From: a virus
IMG/VR virus record: IMGVR_UViG_3300048030_000601
Span: 1 to 33,251 of that record
Strand: one strand, 5' to 3'
DNA length: 33,251 nt
Below, in pieces: positions 23,312-33,155 of this stretch. The position numbers and the translations under genes are program-made. Positions within the stretch are counted from its first letter, which is position 1; every line of letters starts with the position of its first letter. The notes below the pieces were generated by a model. It made no database searches. It was not told the DNA's origin and saw only the letters and a list, made by a program, of their open reading frames with translations.

Positions 23312-24997
23312 ATGAAAAATAATCGCATATCAAGTTTTCAAAAAATTAACGCATTGCACGCATTCCCAACTGAAATACCTCCAAGCCATACACAATCCAA
23401 CCAGCACGACAATTTTTTATTTTTAGTAACAAAACCGAATGAAAATAATTCTGTAATTAACTTTAAAGATTTAAAGAGTTCTATTGTTAACGATACAGTT
23501 TCGCTAACAGGAGATCAATTGATTAGAGGCAAAAAAATCTTTGCCGATGACTGTTCGTTTAACGGTAAATTATTTACAAAAGAAATTATAGATACAACTC
23601 AAGAAGGAGACATTAGCGGATACAATTTTATAGGTGAGCAAATTTATTTTAATAAAGTTGGAATCGGAAATAAGTTTTCTGCCGGACAATCAGACCCTCA
23701 GGCTTCGCTAGAGGTTGATGGAGGTATTCATTCTGAAGGTAACTTTATATCTGAAGGTTCTGGAATATTTTCGGGAAGTTTTTCCTCTAATTTTTTGAAC
23801 GTTGACGATCAAGCGAATATAGGTGGAGATTTAACATCTTCTGGAAACATTTTTTGTGGCGGAAACTTATTAGCGGAAGGAGATTTGTATCTATCAGGTA
23901 TTTTAAAATCCAATCAGCACGAAGGTTATATTGAAATTTCTTCGGACTATTTAAGGATTGCTGCGGACGACTCTAATTACCTAAATATAAACTCAGGAAT
24001 AGATGTGATTATTTCTGGAGAAAACAAATTTTCTATTGATAATTCAGGCAACGTAAGAATTAATACAGATATTAACTCCGGGTCTTTAAACATGTCTGGA
24101 GAAGCATATTTTGAAGAATTATATGTAACAGGTGAAGATGGAGCTTATGAAAAAGTTGTACCTCAAAAATACGATGAACCTGTATTTTTCACGCAAAAGC
24201 TTAACCCTGGACGTATTAGGTATGAAATTGATTTACCAAAAACATTTGGATCAAAACCTTCAATACAGACTACTTTACTAAACGACAATGGGGAGACGTT
24301 TCTTAACTATTACATTTCAGATATTAACAGAGATTCTTTTCTACTCAACCTAGATCAGTTAATGACAGGAGTAGGCTATTCTTTACAGGTTCAAGCCTCA
24401 GTGCAACAGATAGTTTCAATACATCAAACAAAACTGCAATCATTTTCAACAGGGTTGCACGAAGGGCATAATTCGTACCAAATTTTCTTTCCTGAAGAAT
24501 TTAATAGAACTCCCGTAATAAATTTAACATTAGAATCCAAACAAACGCGAAGACCTACTGATTTTGGACTTCCAGGCCAAACATTATTTGAAGATTCGTA
24601 TTACTATCTTTTCACAGACTTTAATCAATGGAAAAGAGTTGATTATGAACTAGAGCAAAGAGCCTCGGGCTCTAGCGGAGATCGGGAAGTAGAGGGCGAC
24701 TTTTTATATATATGCACGGGTCAAGATTTTTGGGCAAAAATAAATGTTAGCGGTTCAGACTTTATGGAAATAAATGATATTGATCTTGACGGGTATCATA
24801 CATCAGGAGATTATACTTACGTATACTCAAGTGAACAAAATGAATGGAAAGAATTTCAAGTTTACTCCTGGCCTTACGAAACCACGCATTCAACAAAAAA
24901 ATATACATTATCTAATATTGATCAACAAAAATTTACATTAAATTTTGATGAGCAATTAAAGTCTAAATATGATATTCATGTTATTGCCGCAAGATAA
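23312..24997 (+). CDS. Tail fibre-like virion protein, paralogue with inserted W-K module
   Basis: 561 residues. The start (NRISSFQKI, LTGDQLIRGKKIFADD) aligns with the preceding protein. Residues 115-285 are Gly/Ser/Asn-rich short repeats (SEGNFISEGSGIFSGSF, GGDLTSSGNIFCGGNL) of the type that forms beta-helical fibre shafts. The C-terminal half has H-type-lectin-like repeats (YEIDLPKTFGSKPSIQ; YQIFFPEEFNRTPVIN). The second repeat is split by an insert of about 100 residues with three Y/W strands (YYYLFTDFNQWKRV, FLYICTGQDFWAKI, YTYVYSSEQNEWKEF), the same W-K module as in the cadherin-tube protein; the repeat then resumes and ends FTLNFDEQLKSKYDIHVIAAR. There is no cupredoxin domain here. Probably a receptor-binding or adhesion fibre. 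It begins 5 nt after the preceding stop and is followed at once by a promoter. Confidence 0.65.
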   Translation: MKNNRISSFQKINALHAFPTEIPPSHTQSNQHDNFLFLVTKPNENNSVINFKDLKSSIVNDTVSLTGDQLIRGKKIFADDCSFNGKLFTKEIIDTTQEGDISGYNFIGEQIYFNKVGIGNKFSAGQSDPQASLEVDGGIHSEGNFISEGSGIFSGSFSSNFLNVDDQANIGGDLTSSGNIFCGGNLLAEGDLYLSGILKSNQHEGYIEISSDYLRIAADDSNYLNINSGIDVIISGENKFSIDNSGNVRINTDINSGSLNMSGEAYFEELYVTGEDGAYEKVVPQKYDEPVFFTQKLNPGRIRYEIDLPKTFGSKPSIQTTLLNDNGETFLNYYISDINRDSFLLNLDQLMTGVGYSLQVQASVQQIVSIHQTKLQSFSTGLHEGHNSYQIFFPEEFNRTPVINLTLESKQTRRPTDFGLPGQTLFEDSYYYLFTDFNQWKRVDYELEQRASGSSGDREVEGDFLYICTGQDFWAKINVSGSDFMEINDIDLDGYHTSGDYTYVYSSEQNEWKEFQVYSWPYETTHSTKKYTLSNIDQQKFTLNFDEQLKSKYDIHVIAAR

Positions 24998-25000
24998 GTC

Positions 25001-25029
25001 TTGACATTAAAGTTATTGTCTGATATAAT
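25001..25029 (+). promoter_or_regulatory. Consensus sigma70-type promoter, leaderless geometry
   Basis: TTGACA (25001-25006), 17-nt spacer, TATAAT (25024-25029): a perfect consensus. Only six bases (tcaggc) separate the -10 box from the ATG at 25036, so the predicted start site is the A of the ATG. It drives the nucleotide/metabolic cassette. Confidence 0.9.
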
Positions 25030-25035
25030 TCAGGC

Positions 25036-25575
25036 ATGAATAATCTATTGTACAGAACTAAATGTTATTTAGTAGGCCACATGCAATATGTTAGTGGCAG
25101 GAATTGGAGAGAGCATGTAACAGAAAAACTTGAACCACTAGGAATAACTTGCTTTGACCCCTATAAAAAACCATTTATTAAAGATGTAGAAGAAGATGAA
25201 GCTTCTCGCCAAGAAATGGAAACTTGGATGAAGACAAAACAATACGATCGAGTTACAGATCGAATGAAAACGGTTCGAGCATATGATTTAAATTTAGTTG
25301 ATCGAAGCGATTTTATAGTAGCCCACCTCGTTCCTGAGGTCGCAAGCTGGGGCAGTGCAGAAGAGATTGTCACTGCAGTTAGAGAGAAGAAACCTGTTTT
25401 TGTTAGTATGGAAGGCGGAAAATCAAAGACTCCTTTATGGATGCTTGGAATGTTCCCGCATAAATATATTTATAATACAGTTGATGAGATTATAGATATG
25501 CTCTTCGCTATAGATTGCGGAAACAAGCCTATTGACTCAGACAGATGGAGACTACTTCAAAAGGAATATAGATAA
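25036..25575 (+). CDS. Nucleoside 2-deoxyribosyltransferase-like protein
   Basis: 179 residues. The N-terminus CYLVGHMQYVSGRNWREHV followed by LEPLGITCFDPYKKP is the YL(A/V)GPM...WR...L...G...DP pattern of the nucleoside 2-deoxyribosyltransferase-like fold (PF05014 and related). The middle has the D-L-x-x-(V/I)-D-x-(S/A)-D-F-I-V segment (DLNLVDRSDFIVAHL), and SWGSAEEIVTA (about 104-113) matches the GTxxEI helix that carries the catalytic Glu in this family. These enzymes exchange or hydrolyse the base of (deoxy)nucleosides or nucleotides. Preceding a GMP reductase, it probably helps reshape purine pools, though the substrate cannot be read from the sequence. Its start codon lies at the predicted transcription start. 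The last base overlaps the next start codon (TAATG). Confidence 0.6.
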   Translation: MNNLLYRTKCYLVGHMQYVSGRNWREHVTEKLEPLGITCFDPYKKPFIKDVEEDEASRQEMETWMKTKQYDRVTDRMKTVRAYDLNLVDRSDFIVAHLVPEVASWGSAEEIVTAVREKKPVFVSMEGGKSKTPLWMLGMFPHKYIYNTVDEIIDMLFAIDCGNKPIDSDRWRLLQKEYR

Positions 25576-25697
25576 TGTACACACTAGCAACTTCTTATTT
25601 TGAATTTTTCACTGGAGATTTTTTAGTTTTTGGAATCATAGGTGGAATTATTTGGCTTTTTAACAAGAAAAAAGAAGACGATTTTTATGACAGTTAA
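25575..25697 (+). CDS. 40-residue single-pass membrane protein
   Basis: MYTLATSYFEFFTGDFLVFG begins a 40-residue frame that continues IIGGIIWLFNKKKEDDFYDS. It has one hydrophobic stretch (about residues 16-29) followed by a Lys-rich then acidic cytoplasmic-type tail, a standard single-pass layout with the C-terminus inside. It overlaps the stop of the upstream gene (TAATG) and the start of the GMP reductase gene by 11 nt, and AAGGA sits 9 nt before the ATG. Sandwiched by overlaps in an operon, it is likely translated. The function is unknown. Confidence 0.55.
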   Translation: MYTLATSYFEFFTGDFLVFGIIGGIIWLFNKKKEDDFYDS

Positions 25698-26664
25698 ATA
25701 CAGAGATTACTCAGATATTGTTTTAGTTCCAAAATATAGTGAATGCTCAAGCAGATCAGAATGCAATACAAGTGTCGAATTTTGCGGGTTTAAATTTAAA
25801 CTTCCAATTATTCCTGCCAATATGCAATCTGTCATCAACATGAGTTTAGCAAAATGGATGAGCGAAAATGAATACTTTTATGTCATGCATCGATTCAATA
25901 ATGATCTTGCAGACAATGTAGCTATCGCAAACGCCGAAAACTGGAAAATAATATCGTTTAGCGTAGGAGTTCAAGATTCAGATCAAGATAAAATACATAA
26001 AATACGAAGGCGAGGAAACTCTATTGATTTCCTCACAATAGATATTGCCCATGGTCATTCAAAAAAAATGATTGACATGATTAAATTTATTAAAAAAGAA
26101 TTACCTAATACAAAAATTATAGCAGGTAACGTAGCAACTCGACAGGCGGTGATTGATTTAGCTAACGCAGGAGCAGATGTGGTAAAAGTTGGAATTGGCC
26201 AAGGTTCTCCCTGCACGACAAAAGATAAAACTGGATTCACACTACCTATGTTTAGTTGCACTAAAGACTGCTCAAATACATACACAGGAAAGAGCGAAGA
26301 AAATTTATTTCGAGTACCTATTATTGCAGACGGAGGAGTTAGATGCAACGGAGATATTGCAAAAGCTATTGTTGCTGGTGCAGACATGGTTATGGCGGGA
26401 GGTTTATTTGCGAGTTGCATAGATAGTCCTGCTGCTATCATAGAGATTAATGGAGAATTTCATAAAGCTTACTTTGGTTCGGCAAGTTATGAAAATAAAA
26501 AACACAGGAACCATATCGAAGGAAAATTAAATAAAATCAAGAATAACGGGATGACATACGAACAAAAGCTGAAAGAAATTCAACAAGACATACAGAGCGC
26601 TATAAGCTACTCAGGAGGTAAAAATTTAGAAAGTTTATCAACCGTAGAGTATCATTATGTGTGA
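25687..26664 (+). CDS. guaC: GMP reductase (IMPDH/GMPR family)
   Basis: 325 residues from ATG 25687 (MTVKYRDYSDIVLVPKYS); a GTG at 25642 would extend it through the small membrane protein gene and is rejected. GMP reductase converts GMP to IMP with NADPH and release of ammonia. Visible blocks in order: DYSDIVLVP; PIIPANMQSV; FSVGV near residue 90; DIAHGHS; IIAGNVATRQAV; ADVVKVGIGQGSPCTTK with catalytic Cys176 and the following Thr; VPIIADGGVRCNGDIAKAI (phosphate loop); GADMVMAGGLFA; and a YFGSASY flap in place of the usual YYGMSS of GMP reductases. No CBS domains are present, as expected for GMP reductase rather than IMP dehydrogenase. Slightly shorter than E. coli GuaC (347). IMP dehydrogenase activity is a less likely alternative. 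Its stop overlaps the next ATG (TGATG). Confidence 0.8.
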   Translation: MTVKYRDYSDIVLVPKYSECSSRSECNTSVEFCGFKFKLPIIPANMQSVINMSLAKWMSENEYFYVMHRFNNDLADNVAIANAENWKIISFSVGVQDSDQDKIHKIRRRGNSIDFLTIDIAHGHSKKMIDMIKFIKKELPNTKIIAGNVATRQAVIDLANAGADVVKVGIGQGSPCTTKDKTGFTLPMFSCTKDCSNTYTGKSEENLFRVPIIADGGVRCNGDIAKAIVAGADMVMAGGLFASCIDSPAAIIEINGEFHKAYFGSASYENKKHRNHIEGKLNKIKNNGMTYEQKLKEIQQDIQSAISYSGGKNLESLSTVEYHYV

Positions 26665-27158
26665 TGAGCAATATACATAATTTAGACTTTCAGCACGAAG
26701 AGAAGATAATTCAATTATTAAAATCCTGCATAGATAACAATGATTCATTATTCATAGGAAAGTTAAAAGCTACAAAAAAAAACGCATATCGTTTATATAA
26801 AACAGAAATTTTCCCGATTATTTTTGAAGATCAGCCAATTTTTGGCTACAGTCTTAAAGAAAAATTAATAGGCCTAACTTGCGCTTCAACAAAACCAAAT
26901 GAAGTTTACGATCTGAAAGAGTCAATAGCGCTAGGAGTATTGACAGTTGTTGATAAAAATTATAGACGACAAAACGTAGGCACTGAACTAAGAATTTTTA
27001 TGGCTAATTTTTTAAAAGATATTGGGATCAATAAATTCATTTATGAAATTCATTCTCAAAATGAGGCGTCTATCAAAAACTCTAAAAAAATTATAGAAAA
27101 ACACAAAGCTCAGACCAACTTAATATCAACAAAACATGAAGCTTCATTAAATGTTTAA
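26664..27158 (+). CDS. GNAT-family N-acetyltransferase
   Basis: 164 residues from the ATG at 26664. The GNAT core is clear: a beta4 strand (SIALGVLTVVD) leading into the acetyl-CoA pyrophosphate loop KNYRRQNVGTELRIFMANFL (RxxxxG(T/x) variant of R/Q-x-x-G-x-G/A, about residues 98-110), then a strand IGINKFIYEIHSQNEASIKN with the Asn/Ser typical of motif B, and KKIIEKHK. The substrate-binding N-terminal half (IIQLLKSCIDNNDSLFIGK) is not diagnostic, so the acceptor is unknown. The gene is locked between GMP reductase and the citrate-synthase-like gene by overlaps of 1 and 8 nt, which suggests it works in the same pathway or on the same target. Confidence 0.65.
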   Translation: MSNIHNLDFQHEEKIIQLLKSCIDNNDSLFIGKLKATKKNAYRLYKTEIFPIIFEDQPIFGYSLKEKLIGLTCASTKPNEVYDLKESIALGVLTVVDKNYRRQNVGTELRIFMANFLKDIGINKFIYEIHSQNEASIKNSKKIIEKHKAQTNLISTKHEASLNV

Positions 27159-27759
27159 AAATGATATATATAAATATCTTGCAGGAGACGAATTAACCGA
27201 AGCTCAATTAGATTTATTCAATGATTTGTCTAATGTTTTTATAGATTTTCCTGTAAAAATAGAACCGCCAAGCTCAGCGGTTGTTGCGTTAGCCTGCAAT
27301 TCAGGCGCATCGCTATCCCATGCCTTATCTGCAGGACTAAGTTGTATTAGTGATCAACATTTACCTATACAGCAAATCGCAGAATTTATACATAAAAACC
27401 ATCAGCATAATCCCCAAGAAGTGCTGGACAGACATACTAATGAAAAAATTCTGGGATTCGGCCATCCATCCATAAAGAACGAAGATAATAGAGTTGTTTT
27501 TCTGAAAAATAAATACAAACAAATGTTCGGCGATCATACAAATTTTTGCATAAATTTGGAAAAAATTATGCCTGTCCCAATGAATATAGGTTGTATTATA
27601 TCTTGCTTGTCTCTAGACAATGGAATAACTCCACATAATTGCCTTTTCCTTCCTCTACTAGGAAGAATGTTTGGTTGGCTTAAGATATACAATGATACGA
27701 AAGTTAAATTCAATAAAGTAGTCCCTTCTTTCTTATCTGTTAACAATGAAAATTTATGA
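27151..27759 (+). CDS. Minimal citrate synthase / citryl-CoA lyase-like protein, probably altered active site
   Basis: 202 residues, about half a normal citrate synthase (370-430) and also shorter than citryl-CoA lyase (about 260). The catalytic core is recognisable: PPSSAVVALACNSGASLSHAL then ISDQHLPI with His70 in the place of the first catalytic His; ILGFGHPSIKNEDNR with His105 as the GFGH(R/P)xxK..DxR motif, where HP rather than HR is the citryl-CoA-lyase form; and MPVPMNIGCIISCLSLDNGI followed by LGRMFGWL, which corresponds to the PxNVDxxxG...R..G(W/L) block. The catalytic Asp of NVD is Gly147 here (PMNIG), so normal aldol chemistry is doubtful. The large N-terminal domain is missing. 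Could be a degenerate, repurposed acyl-CoA-binding protein. Overlaps neighbours by 8 and 14 nt. Confidence 0.6.
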   Translation: MFKNDIYKYLAGDELTEAQLDLFNDLSNVFIDFPVKIEPPSSAVVALACNSGASLSHALSAGLSCISDQHLPIQQIAEFIHKNHQHNPQEVLDRHTNEKILGFGHPSIKNEDNRVVFLKNKYKQMFGDHTNFCINLEKIMPVPMNIGCIISCLSLDNGITPHNCLFLPLLGRMFGWLKIYNDTKVKFNKVVPSFLSVNNENL

Positions 27760-28471
27760 TTTTATATTAAATAACAGCCTCCCTAAAGATTTAAGAGCTT
27801 TCTGCGATCTTTCAAAAGATCTAAAGTCAAAGTATAAAGCGCTTGATGGCTTTGGCCTTGATTATTCAAAAAAAGGAATCAACTCAATTAAGCTTTATAC
27901 AAAAATTTACAGTAGAAAATTACCGGCGCAAGAAGATTGCTTGAAATGTTTTTTTGGAGAGCAAGATTTCATTGCTAGTAGAACAGGCATCCACAATCAA
28001 TCTATACAAGGAATTAATTTATCAATTAAGGTCAATTTAAATTCACTAAAAACAAAAAAAGCAATATATCTACCAGATGGCAAAAATTCCAGCAAAGTTA
28101 TAACTTTCAATAAAGGTGCGCGTACAGAATTAAAATACAGATATTTTTACAACCCTTTAATTATTAATCTTATTAATTTTTATTTTAAACTCAATATGCC
28201 AAAGCATAAAGAAGGAATTGAATTTTCAAGAAGAGGTAAAAAAGCTCACTGTTCTATTTTTCCAAAATTTAATCACAACAGTATGACGCTAAAAGAATCA
28301 AAAAATTATTGCAATAAATTAAAAAAAACCATCAATCCACAATTACCTGATTTTATTGAGGAGTTTGAGACGAAAGAATGTTCTTTCATCACCCAAGGAT
28401 ACACCTCAAACAACATCATTTCAAAGACATATTTCGGACTTTTTGATTGGGAAAAATCAACATTTGAATAA
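27746..28471 (+). CDS. Unrecognised 241-residue protein of the metabolic cassette
   Basis: 241 residues, basic (about 40 Lys), without signal peptide or membrane segment. It shows alternating helix and paired-strand stretches: DGFGLDYSKKGINSIKLYTK, then GINLSIKVNLNSL, KYRYFYNPLIINLI, GIEFSRRGKKAHCSIFPKF, and CSFITQGYTSNNIISKTYFG at the C-terminus. The repeated 'G(L/I)(D/E)(Y/F)S..(I)K(L/A)Y' hairpins are vaguely like the alpha-beta-beta-alpha repeats of ABBA-type prenyltransferases, but this is only an impression and no motif confirms it. The gene starts inside the end of the citrate-synthase-like gene (14-nt overlap, no Shine-Dalgarno), and closes the cassette just before the next promoter. 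Product and substrate unknown. Confidence 0.6.
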   Translation: MKIYDFILNNSLPKDLRAFCDLSKDLKSKYKALDGFGLDYSKKGINSIKLYTKIYSRKLPAQEDCLKCFFGEQDFIASRTGIHNQSIQGINLSIKVNLNSLKTKKAIYLPDGKNSSKVITFNKGARTELKYRYFYNPLIINLINFYFKLNMPKHKEGIEFSRRGKKAHCSIFPKFNHNSMTLKESKNYCNKLKKTINPQLPDFIEEFETKECSFITQGYTSNNIISKTYFGLFDWEKSTFE

Positions 28472-28478
28472 ATAACTC

Positions 28479-28507
28479 TTGACATTTACATTTATTTATA
28501 ATATAAT
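28479..28507 (+). promoter_or_regulatory. Consensus sigma70-type promoter, leaderless geometry
   Basis: TTGACA (28479-28484), 17-nt spacer, TATAAT (28502-28507), a perfect consensus. Seven bases separate it from the ATG at 28515, so the message should start at or 1 nt before the ATG. It drives the small genes and probably also the tmRNA. Confidence 0.9.
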
Positions 28508-28514
28508 CAATCTC

Positions 28515-28688
28515 ATGAATAAAGCAATAGCAAAAGAAATAAGAAAAATCATTAACTATGATGCTAAACTTTCTGATGCAACACAGAAGCGAGTATATTC
28601 TCGCGCAAAAAAACAATACACAAAACTTAGTGAAGGAGCAAAACCTTTATTTTTACAAGAACTTAAAAATTTATATAAACAAAACTAA
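28515..28688 (+). CDS. Small basic helical protein
   Basis: 57 residues starting MNKAIAKEIRKIINYDAKLS and ending LFLQELKNLYKQN. It is rich in Lys and Ala, predicted all-helical, soluble. An earlier in-frame TTG overlaps the -35 box and is rejected; the ATG at 28515 sits at the predicted transcription start. I do not recognise it. Size and charge would suit a small DNA-, RNA- or host-protein-binding factor made early, but nothing in the sequence proves it. Confidence 0.6.
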   Translation: MNKAIAKEIRKIINYDAKLSDATQKRVYSRAKKQYTKLSEGAKPLFLQELKNLYKQN

Positions 28689-28690
28689 TT

Positions 28691-29014
28691 ATGGAAAATC
28701 AAACACAAGATAAGCAACAGTCAGAGTGGCGTAATCGTGAGCTAGGGGCTCTTTGGGTACGCAGCGGAAAGAATCAAAAATATCTTTCAGGAACAATTAA
28801 TGTCGAAACAATGCCAGGAGTTACAGAGCCTGTGAAAGTGGTTGTTTTCACTAATAAAGGGCGAGATAAAAACGAAAGAGCGCCGGACTATGTAATTTAT
28901 AGATCTGAAGAAGCATCTCAGGATAAAGCTAGCGTTGAGCAAGTGGCAAAGCAAGCCGCAGAAGAAGTTAAATCTTCTAAAAGTAATGAAGATATCCCTG
29001 AAGAATTATTTTAA
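28691..29014 (+). CDS. Small beta-rich protein resembling DUF736, with an SSB-like acidic tip
   Basis: 107 residues. The central part RELGALWVRSGKNQKYLSGT, then VKVVVFTNKGRDKNERAPDYVIYRS, resembles the DUF736 pattern in which a GxLW/GxI start, a glycine-turn strand and a (N)xxKxxxxxPDY(R/V)V end form a small beta domain. The last 30 residues are helical, then acidic with a terminal aromatic (SNEDIPEELF), reminiscent of the C-terminal tip by which single-stranded DNA-binding proteins recruit partners. Role in replication is possible but unproven. It begins 2 nt after the upstream stop without a Shine-Dalgarno sequence. Confidence 0.55.
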   Translation: MENQTQDKQQSEWRNRELGALWVRSGKNQKYLSGTINVETMPGVTEPVKVVVFTNKGRDKNERAPDYVIYRSEEASQDKASVEQVAKQAAEEVKSSKSNEDIPEELF

Positions 29015-29016
29015 TT

Positions 29017-29202
29017 ATGGAAAAACAATTTTGGCATAGCAAAAAATTCTGGGCAGCAGTTGTTGCTGCGGGTGTACCTATCGTAAACCATTTTTTTAAT
29101 CTAGGCCTAACGCAAGAGATTGTGATGCAAATTGTAAGCCCTGTAGTGGCATATATTTTAGGTCAAGGATTAGCAGATTTAGGTAAAAACAAAAACAATT
29201 GA
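29017..29202 (+). CDS. Small membrane protein, holin candidate
   Basis: 61 residues. A basic start (MEKQFWHSKKFW) is followed by two hydrophobic helices, about 12-28 (AAVVAAGVPIVNHFFNLGL) and 34-52 (IVMQIVSPVVAYILGQGLA), and a Lys/Asn-rich tail. The two-helix layout with charged ends and length under 100 residues is that of many class II holins or holin-like phage membrane proteins. No endolysin gene is nearby, so the assignment is tentative; a regulator of membrane state is the alternative. It is followed 15 nt later by the tmRNA gene. Confidence 0.5.
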   Translation: MEKQFWHSKKFWAAVVAAGVPIVNHFFNLGLTQEIVMQIVSPVVAYILGQGLADLGKNKNN

Positions 29203-29217
29203 TCTTTAACAGTTAAT

Positions 29218-29584
29218 GGGCGTGTACCGGATTCGATTTAAATTGAATTTATGTACTGCAAGTAGGAGTGTGTCTGGCTCCTAAAAAAGGCACAAAAAAT
29301 TACATGGCAAAAATCTTAGTCGTGTCAAAAGCTTCGCTCCAAAAAGCGAGGCTTTTGCTTTGGTAGCGTAACGCATGCCACCTCGTAGCTTTTGACGCAG
29401 ATAGAAAGATTACGAGGTCATTAATCTGCAAAACAGATAAAAGTTTTCCTGTTTCGCAAACTGCAAATAATTGAAACAGGTAGTTGGATGTTAATATCAT
29501 AACTTTAAAAAAAATTAACTAAACTTGTAGATGTACATCATTGAAGGTTTAAAGACGCGGGTTCGACTCCCGCCACGTCCACCA
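29218..29584 (+). ncRNA. ssrA: tmRNA (transfer-messenger RNA), one-piece, with encoded CCA
   Basis: 367 nt. The 5' GGGCGTG (29218-29224) pairs with CACGTCC (29574-29580) as a 7-bp acceptor stem, followed by ACCA. Conserved GGATTCGA lies at 29229-29236. The T arm is GCGGG-TTCGACT-CCCGC (29557-29573). A pseudoknot PK1 forms from TAGGAG/CTCCTA (29263-29268/29278-29283) and TGTGTC/GGCACA (29269-29274/29289-29294). The tag frame follows 11 nt later. A 12-bp hairpin (29327-29338/29345-29356) is in the helix 5 position. PK2 is ACCTCGTA/TACGAGGT (29380-29387/29411-29418) with GCAGAT/ATCTGC (29397-29402/29424-29429), and another stem is CCTGTTTC/GAAACAGG (29448-29455/29473-29480). With SmpB, tmRNA rescues stalled ribosomes and tags the product for proteolysis. 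All elements are intact, so it looks functional. It sits between a holin-like gene and a 52-codon gene, probably read from the 28479 promoter. Confidence 0.94.
29306..29371 (+). other. tmRNA tag-peptide reading frame
   Basis: Resume codon GGC at 29306, stop TAA at 29369-29371, giving 21 encoded residues: GKNLSRVKSF, then APKSEAFALVA; the Ala carried by the tmRNA precedes them. The distance from PK1 to GGC (11 nt, starting with an A-run) matches known tmRNAs. The GK start resembles Firmicute tags (AGK...) and the ALVA end is the hydrophobic degron expected for ClpXP-type proteases. It is longer and more basic than most bacterial tags. Confidence 0.8.
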
Positions 29585-29611
29585 ATTTAAATTTTTGTGT
29601 ATTAATACCTT

Positions 29612-29770
29612 ATGGAAGAAGAAGAAGATGAAATTATGTTTGAGCCCGATGATGCGCTCATTTTAGCTTTAAATGAAATCCACGATTTAAAGCAGTTAGT
29701 TGAAACGCAAGACTCCGCAATTGAGGAATTAAAGAGTCAATTAAACCTCCTTGCTAAGAAAATTAAGTAA
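29612..29770 (+). CDS. 52-residue acidic coiled-coil protein
   Basis: The frame starts MEEEEDEIMFEPDDALILAL and ends LKSQLNLLAKKIK. It has a very acidic N-terminus and then heptad-like leucine spacing (LALNEIHDLKQLVETQ, IEELKSQLNLL), so a parallel coiled coil or a small dimeric adaptor is likely. It lies between the tmRNA and the next promoter, has no Shine-Dalgarno sequence, and ends 8 nt before the next -35 box. Codon use is like its neighbours. No function can be assigned. Confidence 0.55.
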   Translation: MEEEEDEIMFEPDDALILALNEIHDLKQLVETQDSAIEELKSQLNLLAKKIK

Positions 29771-29778
29771 ATTAACGC

Positions 29779-29807
29779 TTGACTTATAGCTATATATATG
29801 AGATAAT
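29779..29807 (+). promoter_or_regulatory. Sigma70-type promoter, leaderless geometry
   Basis: TTGACT (29779-29784), 17-nt spacer ending TATATATGA, GATAAT (29802-29807). The ATG follows at 29816, so the message should start about 2 nt before it. The sequence around the -10 (ATATATGAGATAATACT) is the same as at the promoter at 33127, which suggests a shared class with an extended -10. It drives the recombination and nucleotide operon. Confidence 0.85.
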
Positions 29808-29815
29808 ACTCGTAT

Positions 29816-30088
29816 ATGAAAAAAATCTCATTAAACAAAGATGGTACTCCGCGTAAACGCCGTAATTCAGGCAAAAAAAGCGGTCTAGCTATTGTTTCCT
29901 TGTCTGTTGACGAGATCTTAGATCTCGCATCACAAGAAGTTTCCTCTATTCCCGTTAGTGAAGATTGGGTGAAAGGAAGGCTTTATGCAAATTATCTCGC
30001 AAACAAAAAAGTCTCTCACGATTTCTCAGATCTTCAAGGGGTAGAGGATAAAATTGAATACGCAATAACATCTTTTGATAATGAATAA
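29816..30088 (+). CDS. Small protein with basic N-terminal tail, first gene of the recombination operon
   Basis: 90 residues. The first 22 residues are strongly basic (KDGTPRKRRNSGKKSG), like a nucleic-acid-binding tail; then a strand and helices (LAIVSLSVDEILDLASQEV, WVKGRLYANYLANKK) and an acidic end (DKIEYAITSFDNE). I recognise no family. As the first gene of an operon with a RuvB-like ATPase and a resolvase-like nuclease, overlapping the ATPase gene by 8 nt, it is a candidate DNA-binding partner of that ATPase, which is an inference from position and charge only. Confidence 0.6.
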   Translation: MKKISLNKDGTPRKRRNSGKKSGLAIVSLSVDEILDLASQEVSSIPVSEDWVKGRLYANYLANKKVSHDFSDLQGVEDKIEYAITSFDNE

Positions 30089-31007
30089 TTATTTTTCACA
30101 CTTAATCGGTCAAGAAAACGTTAAGAAAAAACTTAACTTTTACTTAAAAGCTTATCATGCCACCAGCGTATGCCCTTTCCTAAATTTAGTTGGAGCAAAA
30201 GGATTAGGTAAAACTCTTTTCGCAAAAGAATTCGCTAAAAACTTGAACAATAAAGATGGAGGTAAGAGACCTTTTTTAGAGTTAAATTGTTCAACAATTA
30301 AAAGCAATACTCAATTTTTCGAACAAATCTTTATTCCAATCATCATGAATAATGAGATCACTATTTTATTTGATGAAGCGCATGCGTTACCTAAAGACTT
30401 GACAATGGCTTTCTTGACTATCTTTAACACAGAAAAGACAAACAAAAAAGAATTTACTTTTGAAGATCAGACTTTTGAATTTGATTTCACAAAGCAAACA
30501 TTTATTTTTGCAACAACCGAAAGCGATAAATTATTTCCGCCCTTAAAAGACAGGTTAACAACAGTTGACTTTGAAGCTTATAATGCTAATGACTTAGGAG
30601 AAATTATTAAATTAAATTGCGATGGAATTAATTTCTCTGAAGAAGCGATGGATAAGCTTTCATTAACTGTCAGAGGAAACGCTCGCAATGCAGTTATGCG
30701 CTCAAAAGAAATTGTGCTCTACTGTGAGAGCGAAAATCAAAACACTTTTGAATCAAAAGATTATGAAGCCCTTACAGATTTACTTGGCATACTCCCTCAT
30801 GGAATTACTTGTACAGAAAAACAAATTCTACAAATTCTTGAAGAAAGAGGTAGTTGCAAGTTGCAAACCTTATCCGCAATTACGGGCTTAAGCCCAACAT
30901 CTCTAAGAAGAGACCATGAAATATATCTTCTGCGCAAAAACTTTATGCAAATTGATGGAGAAAGAAAGATAACTAATTCGGGCAAAAATTTAATTAAATC
31001 AATATAA
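30081..31007 (+). CDS. RuvB-like AAA+ ATPase (branch migration motor)
   Basis: 308 residues from the ATG at 30081. Opening NYFSHLIGQENVKKKLNFYL matches the RuvB N-terminus (xxxFIGQxxxxxxL). Walker A is GAKGLGKT (38-45), Walker B ILFDEAH with D98 and E99, sensor 1 IFATTE, arginine-finger segment PPLKDRL, sensor 2 GNARNAV where RuvB has GxPRxA. The C-terminal 80 residues form a winged helix (ITCTEKQILQILEERGSCKL; TSLRRDHEIYLLRKNFMQID) in the RuvB arrangement. RuvB pumps DNA through Holliday junctions as a hexamer with RuvA. No RuvA or RuvC is in the window; the nearby resolvase-like nuclease may take over cleavage. A clamp-loader-type role is a less likely alternative. It has a start without Shine-Dalgarno sequence, overlapping the previous gene. 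Confidence 0.75.
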   Translation: MNNYFSHLIGQENVKKKLNFYLKAYHATSVCPFLNLVGAKGLGKTLFAKEFAKNLNNKDGGKRPFLELNCSTIKSNTQFFEQIFIPIIMNNEITILFDEAHALPKDLTMAFLTIFNTEKTNKKEFTFEDQTFEFDFTKQTFIFATTESDKLFPPLKDRLTTVDFEAYNANDLGEIIKLNCDGINFSEEAMDKLSLTVRGNARNAVMRSKEIVLYCESENQNTFESKDYEALTDLLGILPHGITCTEKQILQILEERGSCKLQTLSAITGLSPTSLRRDHEIYLLRKNFMQIDGERKITNSGKNLIKSI

Positions 31008-31010
31008 TAT

Positions 31011-31205
31011 ATGACAACAGAAACAAAAAGCAAAGTATATGTAGTAACTAGAAATTCAAGAAGAATTGAAGAAAGAAATTACTCTTCAAAAGAAGATGCG
31101 GAGGCTAGAGCTCAAAAATTAGTTAATGTGTTAAAAACATGGAGAGACCCCGATCTAAAAAAAGTCAAAGTGGTACATACAGATAAACCTCAAAAAATCA
31201 GATAG
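31011..31205 (+). CDS. Small unrecognised protein
   Basis: 64 residues starting MTTETKSKVYVVTRNSRRIE. It has a strand, a helix (SKEDAEARAQKLVNVLKTW) and a second strand (LKKVKVVHTDKP), a small alpha/beta layout, basic overall. It ends IR followed by TAG, which overlaps the GTG start of the next gene (TAGTG). The family is unknown. Small proteins of this shape are common companions in phage replication operons, but no role can be read from the sequence. Confidence 0.55.
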   Translation: MTTETKSKVYVVTRNSRRIEERNYSSKEDAEARAQKLVNVLKTWRDPDLKKVKVVHTDKPQKIR

Positions 31206-31711
31206 TGCTAGAGGATAAGCCAAAGTTTAAAAATTTATTTGAAGAACTAGCTTTCAATCGGGGTTATACCCCTAGAAAAAGAAATAGTTCTGACAAAAAC
31301 TGCAAAAATGTATCCCACATCTTGACAGGAAAAGGGTCAGAAGGAAAACCCATCAAAATTAAAGTTGATGTCAAAAAAATTAAAAATAAAAAACAAGACC
31401 AAAATTGGCTTTGGATTGAATTCAAAAATGCTAGTGGTAGGAACGGATGGATTCATGGAGATGCACACTTTATCGTTTTTGAGCGCAAAGAAGATTTTAT
31501 TTTTGTTAACCGCAAAGAACTCTCGTCTTGGATAAGCTCGTCTAATAAAATTAGATACGATTTACCATTTGTAACATTAGCTAAAAAAGCGAAGTACAGA
31601 ATATACAAAAGAGCTGGAGAAAAAGATGAGATAACTCAGATTAAAGTTGATGATATAAAAGATTTGAAGTCATTCCAGATATGGAAAAAGCCCGATGGCA
31701 AATCAACCTGA
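31205..31711 (+). CDS. Phage protein of unknown function with a Trp/Phe-rich nuclease-like core
   Basis: 168 residues; the start is GTG at 31205, overlapping the upstream stop as TAGTG; there is no ATG in the first 100 codons. A basic N-terminus (NRGYTPRKRNSSDKN) is followed by KIKVDVKKIKNKKQDQNWLW, IEFKNASGRNGWIHGDAHFI, VFERKEDFIFVNRKELSSWI. The run WIEFKN..G..GWxxGxAxxIxFE...F..V.R.xL recalls a conserved phage protein group that I associate with a PD-(D/E)XK-like fold (E-x-K of IEFK as the metal site), but this is from memory of a pattern and not certain. Placed between the RuvB-like ATPase and dCMP deaminase genes, it may belong to DNA metabolism. Confidence 0.6.
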   Translation: MLEDKPKFKNLFEELAFNRGYTPRKRNSSDKNCKNVSHILTGKGSEGKPIKIKVDVKKIKNKKQDQNWLWIEFKNASGRNGWIHGDAHFIVFERKEDFIFVNRKELSSWISSSNKIRYDLPFVTLAKKAKYRIYKRAGEKDEITQIKVDDIKDLKSFQIWKKPDGKST

Positions 31712-32123
31712 ACTAGATAAAACTTACATAAAAATGGCGAGACAGTGGAGTTCTTTATCTAAATCTAAGAGGCTCCAAGTTGGATGTTTAATTGTTAAAG
31801 ACGGATCAATTATATCCGATGGATATAATGGCACACCAAAAGGTTTCAATAACCAATGTGAAGATATAGACTATTTTAATCAACTTGTAACTCGCAAGGA
31901 AGTTTTGCATGCAGAAAGTAATGCAATTACCAAATTAGCAAAGTCTACACAATCTAGTTCTGGAGCAACAATGTATGTTACAACTTCACCTTGCATTGAA
32001 TGCGCCAAGCTTATTATTCAATCAGACATCATTAGAGTTGTATATTCAGATTTTTATCGCAGTAATGCAGGTATAAATCTTCTAAAAAAAGCGGGAATAA
32101 AAGTAGAACAGCTACAAATTTAA
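31695..32123 (+). CDS. Deoxycytidylate (dCMP) deaminase
   Basis: 142 residues. The zinc-dependent deaminase signature is complete: HAES with zinc ligand His72 and catalytic Glu74, then TTSPCIECAK with Cys100 and Cys103. LQVGCLIVKDGSIISDGYNG and TPKGFNNQCED are the substrate and nucleotide segments typical of dCMP deaminases (NGxPxG). It converts dCMP to dUMP, feeding dTMP synthesis, and fits well with the dUTPase two genes later, since both supply dUMP. The length is normal for phage dCMP deaminases (about 140-190). The start overlaps the previous gene by 17 nt. Confidence 0.88.
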   Translation: MANQPELDKTYIKMARQWSSLSKSKRLQVGCLIVKDGSIISDGYNGTPKGFNNQCEDIDYFNQLVTRKEVLHAESNAITKLAKSTQSSSGATMYVTTSPCIECAKLIIQSDIIRVVYSDFYRSNAGINLLKKAGIKVEQLQI

Positions 32124-32137
32124 ATTATCATCATTAA

Positions 32138-32701
32138 ATGATAGAAGGTATCTCAATTATAATAATTTTGTTTTTGTGTTATTTTGTATATAAATACAAA
32201 CCGCAAGACGACTCTGAACTAGATAATCTAAGAAATGAAAATGAATTTTTAAAATTAAAATTAAATGAGAATAATCAAGAGTCAAAGCATAGAGAAGATA
32301 ATTTAACAAAAATTATTAATGAATTGCAAACATCTATTCCTAAAGATAGAGAAGATTTTCAAAAGAGAAGTGATCTTCAGTCGCAGCAGATTAAAGAGCT
32401 TCAGGAGAGGCTCGATAGCGAGACTGAGGCTCGTAAGAAAGTTCTTTCGCAGAAGAAGAGTGGGGAGGTCAGGCTTGGGCATATAGCGGAGACCCTAGCC
32501 CCCTTCTTGGATCAATTTGAATTTGATCCAGAGAGATGTTCTTTTATGGGTAAACCGATTGACTATATATCATTCGGAGATGATGAGATAACTTTTATAG
32601 AAGTAAAAAGCGGTAACGCACAATTAAATCAAAGACAAAGACAAATTAAACAACTAGTACAACAAAAAGCAATATCATGGAAGGAAGTCAGAATAAAGTA
32701 A
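32138..32701 (+). CDS. Membrane-anchored Holliday-junction-resolvase-like nuclease
   Basis: 187 residues in three parts. Residues 2-20 (IEGISIIIILFLCYFVYKY) are a transmembrane helix. Residues 25-105 are a long charged coiled coil. Residues 105-187 are a PD-(D/E)XK domain of the family described as 'endonuclease related to archaeal Holliday junction resolvase': KKSGEVRLGHIAETLAPFL, then MGKPIDYISF with Asp142, FIEVKSGNAQLNQRQRQIK with Glu155 and Lys157, and a final strand (ISWKEVRIK). The nuclease would cleave branched DNA; the anchor suggests it works at the membrane. It lies in one operon with the RuvB-like ATPase. Its start has no Shine-Dalgarno sequence, and the end overlaps dUTPase by 25 nt. 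Confidence 0.75.
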   Translation: MIEGISIIIILFLCYFVYKYKPQDDSELDNLRNENEFLKLKLNENNQESKHREDNLTKIINELQTSIPKDREDFQKRSDLQSQQIKELQERLDSETEARKKVLSQKKSGEVRLGHIAETLAPFLDQFEFDPERCSFMGKPIDYISFGDDEITFIEVKSGNAQLNQRQRQIKQLVQQKAISWKEVRIK

Positions 32702-33117
32702 AAATTAAATTTAAAAAATTAAACAAACGCGCAGAAATTCCTTTTTATGCAAAGGATGGAGATGCAGGAATGGATTTAGTCGCAACCACCCTTGTTCGAA
32801 CAAGTAAGTTTTTCGAATACGGAACAGATTTAGCAATGGAGATTCCTAAAGGTTATGTTGGTTTGCTTTTCCCAAGATCAAGCATTTCAAAAACAGATCA
32901 TTTTTTGCGTAATTCTGTTGGAGTTATAGACTCTGGATATCGCGGAGAAATTAAACTGCGTATGAGTATCCCTGCTTTAGGAGAAACTGAATATTTGATA
33001 GGAGACAAAGTTGGTCAATTAATTCTAATCAAGCTTCCTTGGGTAGAGATCGAAGAAGTAGAAGAGCTCTCGTATACTGATCGCGGAGAAGGCGGATTTG
33101 GAAGTACAGGAAATTAA
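32677..33117 (+). CDS. dut: dUTPase (deoxyuridine triphosphatase)
   Basis: 146 residues with all five motifs of the homotrimeric dUTPase family: I DAGMDLVA (Asp29), II PRSSISK, III GVIDSGYRGEIK with catalytic Asp85, IV KVGQLILIKLPW, V RGEGGFGSTG near the C-terminus. It hydrolyses dUTP to dUMP and pyrophosphate, keeping uracil out of DNA and supplying dUMP together with the dCMP deaminase upstream. The loop before motif II (RTSKFFEYGTDLAMEIPKGY) is slightly longer than in E. coli Dut. It is the last gene of the 29816 operon; the next promoter begins 9 nt after its stop. Confidence 0.93.
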   Translation: MEGSQNKVKIKFKKLNKRAEIPFYAKDGDAGMDLVATTLVRTSKFFEYGTDLAMEIPKGYVGLLFPRSSISKTDHFLRNSVGVIDSGYRGEIKLRMSIPALGETEYLIGDKVGQLILIKLPWVEIEEVEELSYTDRGEGGFGSTGN

Positions 33118-33126
33118 AATTAAGCC

Positions 33127-33155
33127 TTGACATTAAACCCAATATATGAGATAAT
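33127..33155 (+). promoter_or_regulatory. Sigma70-type promoter, leaderless geometry
   Basis: TTGACA (33127-33132), 17-nt spacer ending ATATATGA, GATAAT (33150-33155). Six bases (actagc) then the ATG at 33162, so the predicted transcription start is the A of the ATG. Its -10 surroundings (ATATATGAGATAATACT) repeat those of the promoter at 29779. Confidence 0.87.

Follow-up and report, generated by a model that had tools for sequence, protein, structure and literature searches.

The stretch of DNA analysed here, called the window below, is a complete IMG/VR entry of 33,251 bases (IMGVR_UViG_3300048030_000601) from an uncultivated phage, a virus of bacteria. Six genes on the plus strand between positions 25036 and 28471 were the subject of the analysis. 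They encode a nucleoside 2-deoxyribosyltransferase-like protein, a 40-aa membrane peptide, a GMP reductase, and three proteins referred to as the trio: a GNAT acyltransferase, a citrate-synthase-like protein with a citryl-CoA-lyase core, and a protein with a predicted prenyltransferase barrel (PT-barrel, or ABBA fold). In related contigs the six genes were separate evolutionary units and not one cassette, and the trio stayed together as a block. The features of the locus are the following.

25001..25029, +, consensus sigma-70-type promoter, exact TTGACA-N17-TATAAT; 6 nt separate the −10 box from the first ATG (leaderless-type spacing)
25036..25575, +, nucleoside 2-deoxyribosyltransferase-like protein, 179 aa, backbone gene (PF15891; 80–100% identity in 80 contigs)
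25575..25697, +, 40-aa peptide 'TM40' with one hydrophobic segment, candidate substrate (open reading frame, ORF)
25687..26664, +, GMP reductase, 325 aa, separate cargo gene (PRK05458, PF00478)
26664..27158, +, GNAT acyltransferase, 164 aa, trio gene 1 (PF00583)
27151..27759, +, citryl-CoA-lyase-core protein, 202 aa, trio gene 2 (profile against PDB, AlphaFold2, VIA)
27746..28471, +, PT-barrel (ABBA) prenyltransferase-like protein, 241 aa, trio gene 3 (AlphaFold2, Foldseek, VIA)
28479..28507, +, second consensus promoter, exact match; 7 nt separate the −10 box from the next gene's ATG (28515)

The six ORFs were confirmed, with overlaps of 1, 11, 1, 8, and 14 nt. A preliminary description of the window had reported six overlapping genes that follow one perfect promoter and end at the next promoter, in a combination matching no phage cassette it could name; coordinates, overlaps, and both promoters (12/12 matches) were reproduced, and the unusual, operon-like gene set is real.

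Linkage of the genes in related contigs

For the comparison, 124 IMG/VR stretches were confirmed to encode the first gene, and the best 80 contigs were kept; all counts refer to these 80. Gene presence was assigned by BLAST against the proteins of the window, so more divergent copies may escape. The sample includes near-identical contigs (e.g. L042/L043, L057/L058, L085/L087, and L003/L032) and represents fewer than 80 independent events.

The first gene, with or without the 40-aa peptide, formed the backbone, while the GMP reductase and the trio varied separately. Between the first-gene/40-aa-peptide pair and the next conserved gene, two separate insertions were observed: the GMP reductase and an exchangeable slot. 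The trio was all-or-nothing. All 18 contigs with its middle gene had the three genes in the same order (in four of them, L032, L038, L043, and L072, the third gene is cut by the contig end), and neither the middle nor the third gene occurred without the others in any of the 80. A profile of the PT-barrel protein gave one match in each of 10 trio records and none in 5 trio-less records. Of the contigs with a GMP reductase, 11 also had the trio and 26 did not; in 7 of the 18 trio contigs the fetched stretch contained no GMP reductase. The preliminary description had treated the six genes as one unit and proposed a search for the same gene order in relatives; that search kept the last three genes together and separated the GMP reductase from them, so the single unit failed for the six and held for the trio.

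The deoxyribosyltransferase-like protein itself was strongly conserved across the contigs, with neighbouring genes often only 30–60% identical. The 40-aa peptide was counted in 43 of the 80 contigs, 41 by BLAST and two (L085 and L087) by eye, where the call is a similar 52-aa ORF missed by BLAST. Among the trio contigs, 16 of 18 carried it by BLAST and a similar ORF was seen by eye in the remaining two. Four mutually exclusive slot states were present in the 43 contigs with the peptide: the trio (18), a GNAT with a DUF2784-like protein (4), a 174-aa protein (10), and none of these (11). The remaining 37 contigs showed no slot modules, although two of them (L090 and L100) end too early to judge, and for 12 of the 37 the fetched stretch included a GMP reductase.

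The second slot module pairs a GNAT of the same family with a membrane protein of about 94 aa (L034, L050, L051, and L063); the DUF2784 Pfam match was above its cut-off in both proteins tested from these four contigs. The third occupant, of 174–177 aa, was found in L035, L037, L044–L046, L052, L055, L062, L064, and L098, as two ORFs in L098. By eye this protein gave the impression of a GNAT, but profile comparison and a PDB search gave nothing, so that this reading found no support and no family or fold was detected by sequence.

A tree of 44 first-gene sequences implied at least 8 changes for the trio, 13 for the slot, and 5 for the GMP reductase. The tree had moderate support, with 11 of 34 inner branches open and a long-branch warning. 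The independence of the trio and the GMP reductase is read from the contig counts; for a paired comparison the tree gave three well-supported pairs, too few to speak for or against it.

Compared with its nearest relative, L002, the window showed nucleotide identities of 84–94% over 26151–28650, from mid-GMP reductase to just past the trio. The flanks were 97.6–99.6% (25151–26150) and 96–99.6% (28651–32150) identical, and further drops were observed at 24901–25150 (88%) and 32151–33150 (80–87%). The divergence peak at 26151–28650 fits the expectation if the block was exchanged by recombination. The window and L002 encode identical versions of the first two proteins, and dN/dS was 0.11–0.19 for the GMP reductase, GNAT, citrate-synthase-like, and sixth genes.

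Such exchange bears on a counter-defence role, in which the trio would alter a phage or host molecule to evade or block host defence and selection would swap alternative modules into the slot. The mutually exclusive slot states, the 13 slot changes, and the recombination-like peak suit this role, but any cargo would show hot-spot exchange, and PADLOC on ten proteins gave no convincing match: nothing at E ≤ 0.1 for eight of them, while the products of genes one and two reached 0.021 and 0.036. We regard it as possible and somewhat unlikely. Its confidence overlaps with those of the other explanations because counter-defence is a role compatible with either of the chemistries discussed below, including the one we favour.

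The first gene was also present in four contigs of metagenome-assembled genomes (MAGs), binned as a proteobacterial MAG, Halobacteriovorax, Neomarinimicrobiota, and Woesebacteria; no host was assigned because these bins disagree. The trio was found in none of the four fetched stretches. Relatives of the lyase core were absent from a pattern scan of genome contigs, which left a bacterial origin untraced, and a viral scan with divergent lyase-core proteins recovered only contigs already collected. The PT-barrel profile matched nothing in sets of 398 and 245 sampled genomes, which held no positive control, and the window's PT-barrel protein matched no plasmid at E ≤ 1. Isolated phages were distant: the first gene matched one GenBank phage record at 31.5% identity, and the terminase of a 205-kb relative was 23–26% identical to those of isolates among the best 12 of 75 matches.

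Protein families and predicted folds

Four families assigned by eye in the preliminary description were above their cut-offs. The first product matched PF15891 with 33.3 bits (cut-off 30). The GMP reductase matched PF00478 (E 4.9e-62) and the curated equivalog model NCBIfam PRK05458 (350.2 bits, cut-off 344), and was below the cut-off of TIGR01306 (320.7 vs 465.65 bits). Known phage GMP reductases (phrog_9582; Staphylococcus phage 42E and Bacillus phage G) were 47.1% and 46.1% identical to that of the window. Unlike in the phrog_9582 phages, the gene is optional in this phage group and precedes the trio when both are present.

The fourth protein belongs to the GNAT family (PF00583, 24.4 bits, cut-off 20.7, residues 55–138). 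Its family profile matched assorted GNAT structures in the PDB, including N-alpha-acetyltransferase 30, and for that reason its substrate is not fixed.

The fifth protein matched PF00285 (33.5 bits, cut-off 27), and its family profile found citryl-CoA lyase 6hxp in the PDB (E 5.4e-10). The AlphaFold2 model had a mean predicted local distance difference test (pLDDT) of 87.1. VIA aligned it to 6hxp with Z 22.8 and a root-mean-square deviation of 1.8 over 192 residues, which places it in the lyase-core fold; Z was 18.6–22.0 to ACLY structures and about 14–16 to citrate synthases. The GNAT and citrate-synthase-like assignments of the preliminary description were upheld. Compared with citryl-CoA lyase and the citryl-CoA lyase (CCL) module of ACLY, the fold is shared and His70, His105, and Arg172 are invariant in 15 phage proteins; these residues presumably correspond to ACLY pocket residues. 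The catalytic Asp differs: where the lyase has the Asp of its N-V-D-G motif, the alignment shows Gly147 in the phage protein, and Gly was found in 15/15 phage proteins. The protein also scored 33.4 bits against NF004869, far below the cut-off of 212. Judged by the motif, the phage Gly presumably stands at the position of D1026 in human ACLY.

These substitutions in the phage proteins can be compared with a mutant enzyme. Human ACLY D1026A is inactive; the space vacated by Asp1026 takes up CoA or acetyl-CoA in a non-canonical manner, and the authors of that study argue for an allosteric role of the domain (PMC10115795). We infer that the fifth protein binds a CoA thioester and is a non-Claisen protein.

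The sixth protein gave no convincing family in Pfam, PHROGs, or NCBIfam, and its label as an unknown in the preliminary description agrees with the missing Pfam match. The AlphaFold2 model built with 16 phage homologues (pLDDT 85.4, predicted TM-score 0.86) showed ten strands with flanking helices, that is, the ten-stranded antiparallel barrel ringed by helices that defines the ABBA superfamily. Foldseek against the PDB returned two matches only at E ≤ 0.001: DciF, an arginine bis-prenyltransferase (1.5e-4), and PirF, a geranyltransferase (4.9e-4). VIA gave Z of 14.8 for DciF, 14.1 for PirF, 14.0 for KgpF, 13.7 for PatF, 13.4 for PagF, and 13.4 for LimF, where rows differing by less than 1 in Z are tied. 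The best 50 VIA rows were all prenyltransferases (Z 10.4–14.8). Ranks 1–10 were cyanobactin-type peptide prenyltransferases (Z 13.1–14.8), followed from rank 11 onward by CymD (13.1) and other indole prenyltransferases. Residues K49, Y51, K53, Y131, Y133, and E159 were identical in 16/16 members, whose identity to the window's protein falls to 25%; position 95 was K or R in 16/16, and K227 was present in the 14/14 members that reach it. Basic and Tyr residues of this kind hold the prenyl diphosphate in the ABBA superfamily, and the invariant ones may do so here. From the model and these comparisons, the sixth protein almost certainly has the predicted PT-barrel fold and is probably an active prenyltransferase.

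Relative to the cyanobactin F-family (PatF/PagF/PirF/KgpF/LimF/DciF), the barrel is shared over residues 1–236 of 241 with Z 13.1–14.8. The phage protein differs in its shorter length (241 vs 280–297 residues in the matched chains), in lacking a match to the family model TIGR04445, and in its gene context, beside GNAT and lyase-core genes and with no cyanobactin precursor recognised. Cyanobactin prenyltransferases are described as having an open pocket and as attaching prenyl groups to Tyr, Trp, Ser, Thr, or Arg or to termini (PMC9609003, PMC13290415).

Several results weigh against this assignment. The Foldseek E-values are modest, with TM-scores of about 0.5. In NCBIfam and Pfam the 16 members gave single, unrelated, weak matches (best DUF4882, E 0.0005, one member). 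The cyanobactin LynF/TruF/PatF model TIGR04445 was silent for the window's protein and for the 16 members at E ≤ 10, although it also matched 0/14 controls. The Z values of peptide and indole prenyltransferases overlap, CymD (13.1) being equal to rank 10; therefore the acceptor class is unsettled and the proximity to peptide prenyltransferases is a tendency. Outside the PDB, a BFVD search gave nothing below E 0.001 (best a Cedratvirus protein, 1.0e-3, TM-score 0.24), and the window's protein had no sequence match in GenBank phages at E ≤ 1.

The same comparisons bear on a non-catalytic barrel, a lipid or ligand binder that would share the fold only. Sequence identity to the solved prenyltransferases in the VIA list is at most 10%, and β-barrel binders (nitrobindin, RseB, and LolA-like) appear lower in the Foldseek list, as a binder would lead one to expect. 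Prenyltransferases filling the best 50 VIA rows, and Lys, Tyr, and Glu residues invariant in members down to 25% identity, point the other way and make a binder improbable.

With these folds at hand, the proposal of the preliminary description that the locus is one metabolic cassette, adjusting purine or acetyl-CoA pools or modifying a nucleotide, can be weighed. The GMP reductase and deoxyribosyltransferase-like genes are genuine and co-oriented with the trio. Yet the units separate in relatives, the lyase core lacks the catalytic Asp, and the sixth gene encodes a predicted PT-barrel; relatives of PF00709 (PurZ-type) or PF00303 (thymidylate synthase) were absent from 16 records of unproven completeness. 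One such cassette is highly improbable. Pool adjustment found no support for the trio, for which a purine role and DNA modification are not favoured; either may apply to the first three genes.

Candidate function of the trio

We consider the GNAT, lyase-core, and PT-barrel genes to have about an even chance of being an exchangeable prenylation/acylation tailoring module of large uncultivated phages that acts on a peptide or protein. Using host dimethylallyl or geranyl diphosphate, the PT-barrel enzyme would prenylate a short peptide, or a segment exposed on a protein, at a nucleophilic side chain (Tyr, Trp, Ser/Thr, Arg, or an end group). An amine of the same target would receive an acyl group from acyl-CoA through the GNAT. 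The lyase-core protein would perform no aldol or Claisen chemistry; it may bind a CoA thioester together with a small acid, as supplier or gate for the GNAT encoded beside it. Peptide prenylation by PT-barrel enzymes is known from natural-product makers. For the sixth protein, a peptide or protein acceptor is tentative, at slightly under an even chance. The 40-aa membrane peptide encoded upstream would be the nearest candidate target, though it is unlikely to be the target of the sixth protein.

Enlarged modules were observed in 4 of the 18 trio contigs (L066, L073, L085, and L087; 99–211 kb; L085 and L087 do not differ in their first gene). Their order is first gene, 40-aa-type peptide, Cupin_8/JmjC, GMP reductase, GNAT, lyase core, an unknown protein of 156–173 aa, a UPF0489-like protein of 218–224 aa, and PT-barrel, so that two genes are inserted before the last trio gene. 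Pfam was run on the JmjC and UPF0489-like proteins of L073, and counterparts were linked by BLAST. The L073 Cupin_8 match had E 3.1e-12, with HxD...H retained in 3/3 aligned proteins. UPF0489 we take to be a family of peptide arginases. The UPF0489-like proteins carry a DXHXD metal motif, with D64, H66, and D68 invariant in 3/3. According to PMC10028609, peptide arginases turn Arg residues of peptides into Orn and have such a metal motif. A search for UPF0489-like genes gave 13 loci: the four enlarged modules, two trio-less members of the first-gene group (L118 and L119), and seven weaker ones.

Amino-acid side chains are the targets of known relatives of JmjC/cupin oxygenases and peptide arginases. 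The added genes speak more for the modification of side chains in a peptide or protein than for a purine pathway, but only 4 of the 18 trio contigs have them, and the window does not. In these four contigs a JmjC/cupin oxygenase and a weakly peptide-arginase-like protein may enlarge the tailoring module. Gene clusters for ribosomally synthesised and post-translationally modified peptides (RiPPs) with peptide arginases and prenyltransferases offer a likeness, as the enlarged modules also join PT-barrel, UPF0489-like, and JmjC-like genes. The phage module differs in having no identified precursor peptide, protease, or cyclase, in its sub-cut-off UPF0489 match, and in the presence of the family in other phage contigs.

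UPF0489-like genes also occur in another setting. In L111 (PBIO01000024.1) the first gene is followed by UvdE (Pfam) and by a UPF0489-like protein that by eye resembles that of L118, with S-adenosylmethionine decarboxylase about 2 kb further on; L118 (IMGVR 3300020469_000021) has a resembling arrangement by eye. Because the decarboxylase lies about 2 kb from the UPF0489-like gene in L111, the family may have a polyamine role.

Other results argue against a peptide or protein tailoring module. The 40-aa peptide, the only precursor candidate in the operon, is also present in 25 trio-less contigs and showed no visible co-variation with the trio. Neither a precursor peptide nor a protease or cyclase was identified. 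The UPF0489 (PF12640) match of L073 is below its cut-off (18.9 bits vs 27, E 0.0021), and the UPF0489-like gene is absent from the window's module and present in trio-less phage contigs too. No relative of PF00348 or PF02401 was found in 15 phage records, and the prenyl donor would therefore be the host's.

The PT-barrel enzyme may instead prenylate a small molecule (an indole, phenolic, quinone, or nucleobase), with the GNAT and lyase-core proteins making or acylating it, for example as a signal or antibiotic-like compound. Indole and phenazine prenyltransferases have the same fold with Z 11–13, CoA-linked genes suit small-molecule acylation, and the deoxyribosyltransferase-like and GMP reductase genes adjoin the trio. 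On the other side, the ten nearest structures are peptide prenyltransferases by a small margin, 7 of the 18 trios have no GMP reductase beside them, and the enlarged modules add oxygenase and UPF0489-like genes and no recognisable pathway synthases. About one chance in four seems to us a suitable weight for this chemistry.

Returning to peptide or protein tailoring, its most specific form is a prenylation system that phages carry and swap as a block, yielding a lipidated product from a small phage membrane peptide or a host peptide during infection. In it a prenyltransferase with the cyanobactin fold would work jointly with an acyltransferase and a CoA-binding pseudo-lyase, and in some phages with hydroxylase and arginase-like enzymes as well. 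We propose this form only tentatively, as it is more doubtful than the module in general. As far as our searches show, such a system would be the first in viruses. Literature searches for phage prenyltransferases, phage RiPP genes, and this enzyme combination found no description among the papers covered, which is weak evidence of absence. If the proposal is true, a PT-barrel enzyme with a GNAT and an Asp-less lyase would be a new viral way to alter host peptides, proteins, or small molecules. Because the trio block was gained and lost repeatedly, it lends itself to a clean experiment.

Promoters and flanking features

The window contains four promoter matches with at most one mismatch; shuffled sequences had 0.54 ± 0.77. 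A looser scan gave 22 sites against 21.1 expected by chance, and the only 12/12 matches were 25001–25029 and 28479–28507. Judged from their sequence, the spacings of 6–7 nt between promoter and ATG would give leaderless or nearly leaderless mRNAs. Similar promoter sequence lay 5′ of the first gene in 14 of 43 relatives by a narrow pattern, and in more by eye with TATAGT. An apparent inverted repeat often surrounds the −10 box at this position in relatives.

The left side of the window encodes minor tail proteins, and two long proteins 5′ of the six genes are tail-fibre-like by eye. On the right side are genes for a holin, a clamp-loader/RuvB-like ATPase, a dCMP deaminase, a Holliday-junction-resolvase-like endonuclease, and a dUTPase. 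Directly 3′ of the holin gene lies a phage transfer-messenger RNA (tmRNA) at 29218–29584 on the plus strand (RF00023, 137.4 bits, E 1.7e-54). ARAGORN misses it and detects a tmRNA in nine of 27 relatives. The tags end in LALAA or LAMAA in six of these (L005, L016, L023, L027, L058, and L062) and are of other types in three (L104, L107, and L110). Short ORFs ending in SEELALAA in L066 and L073 resemble the same tmRNA tag.

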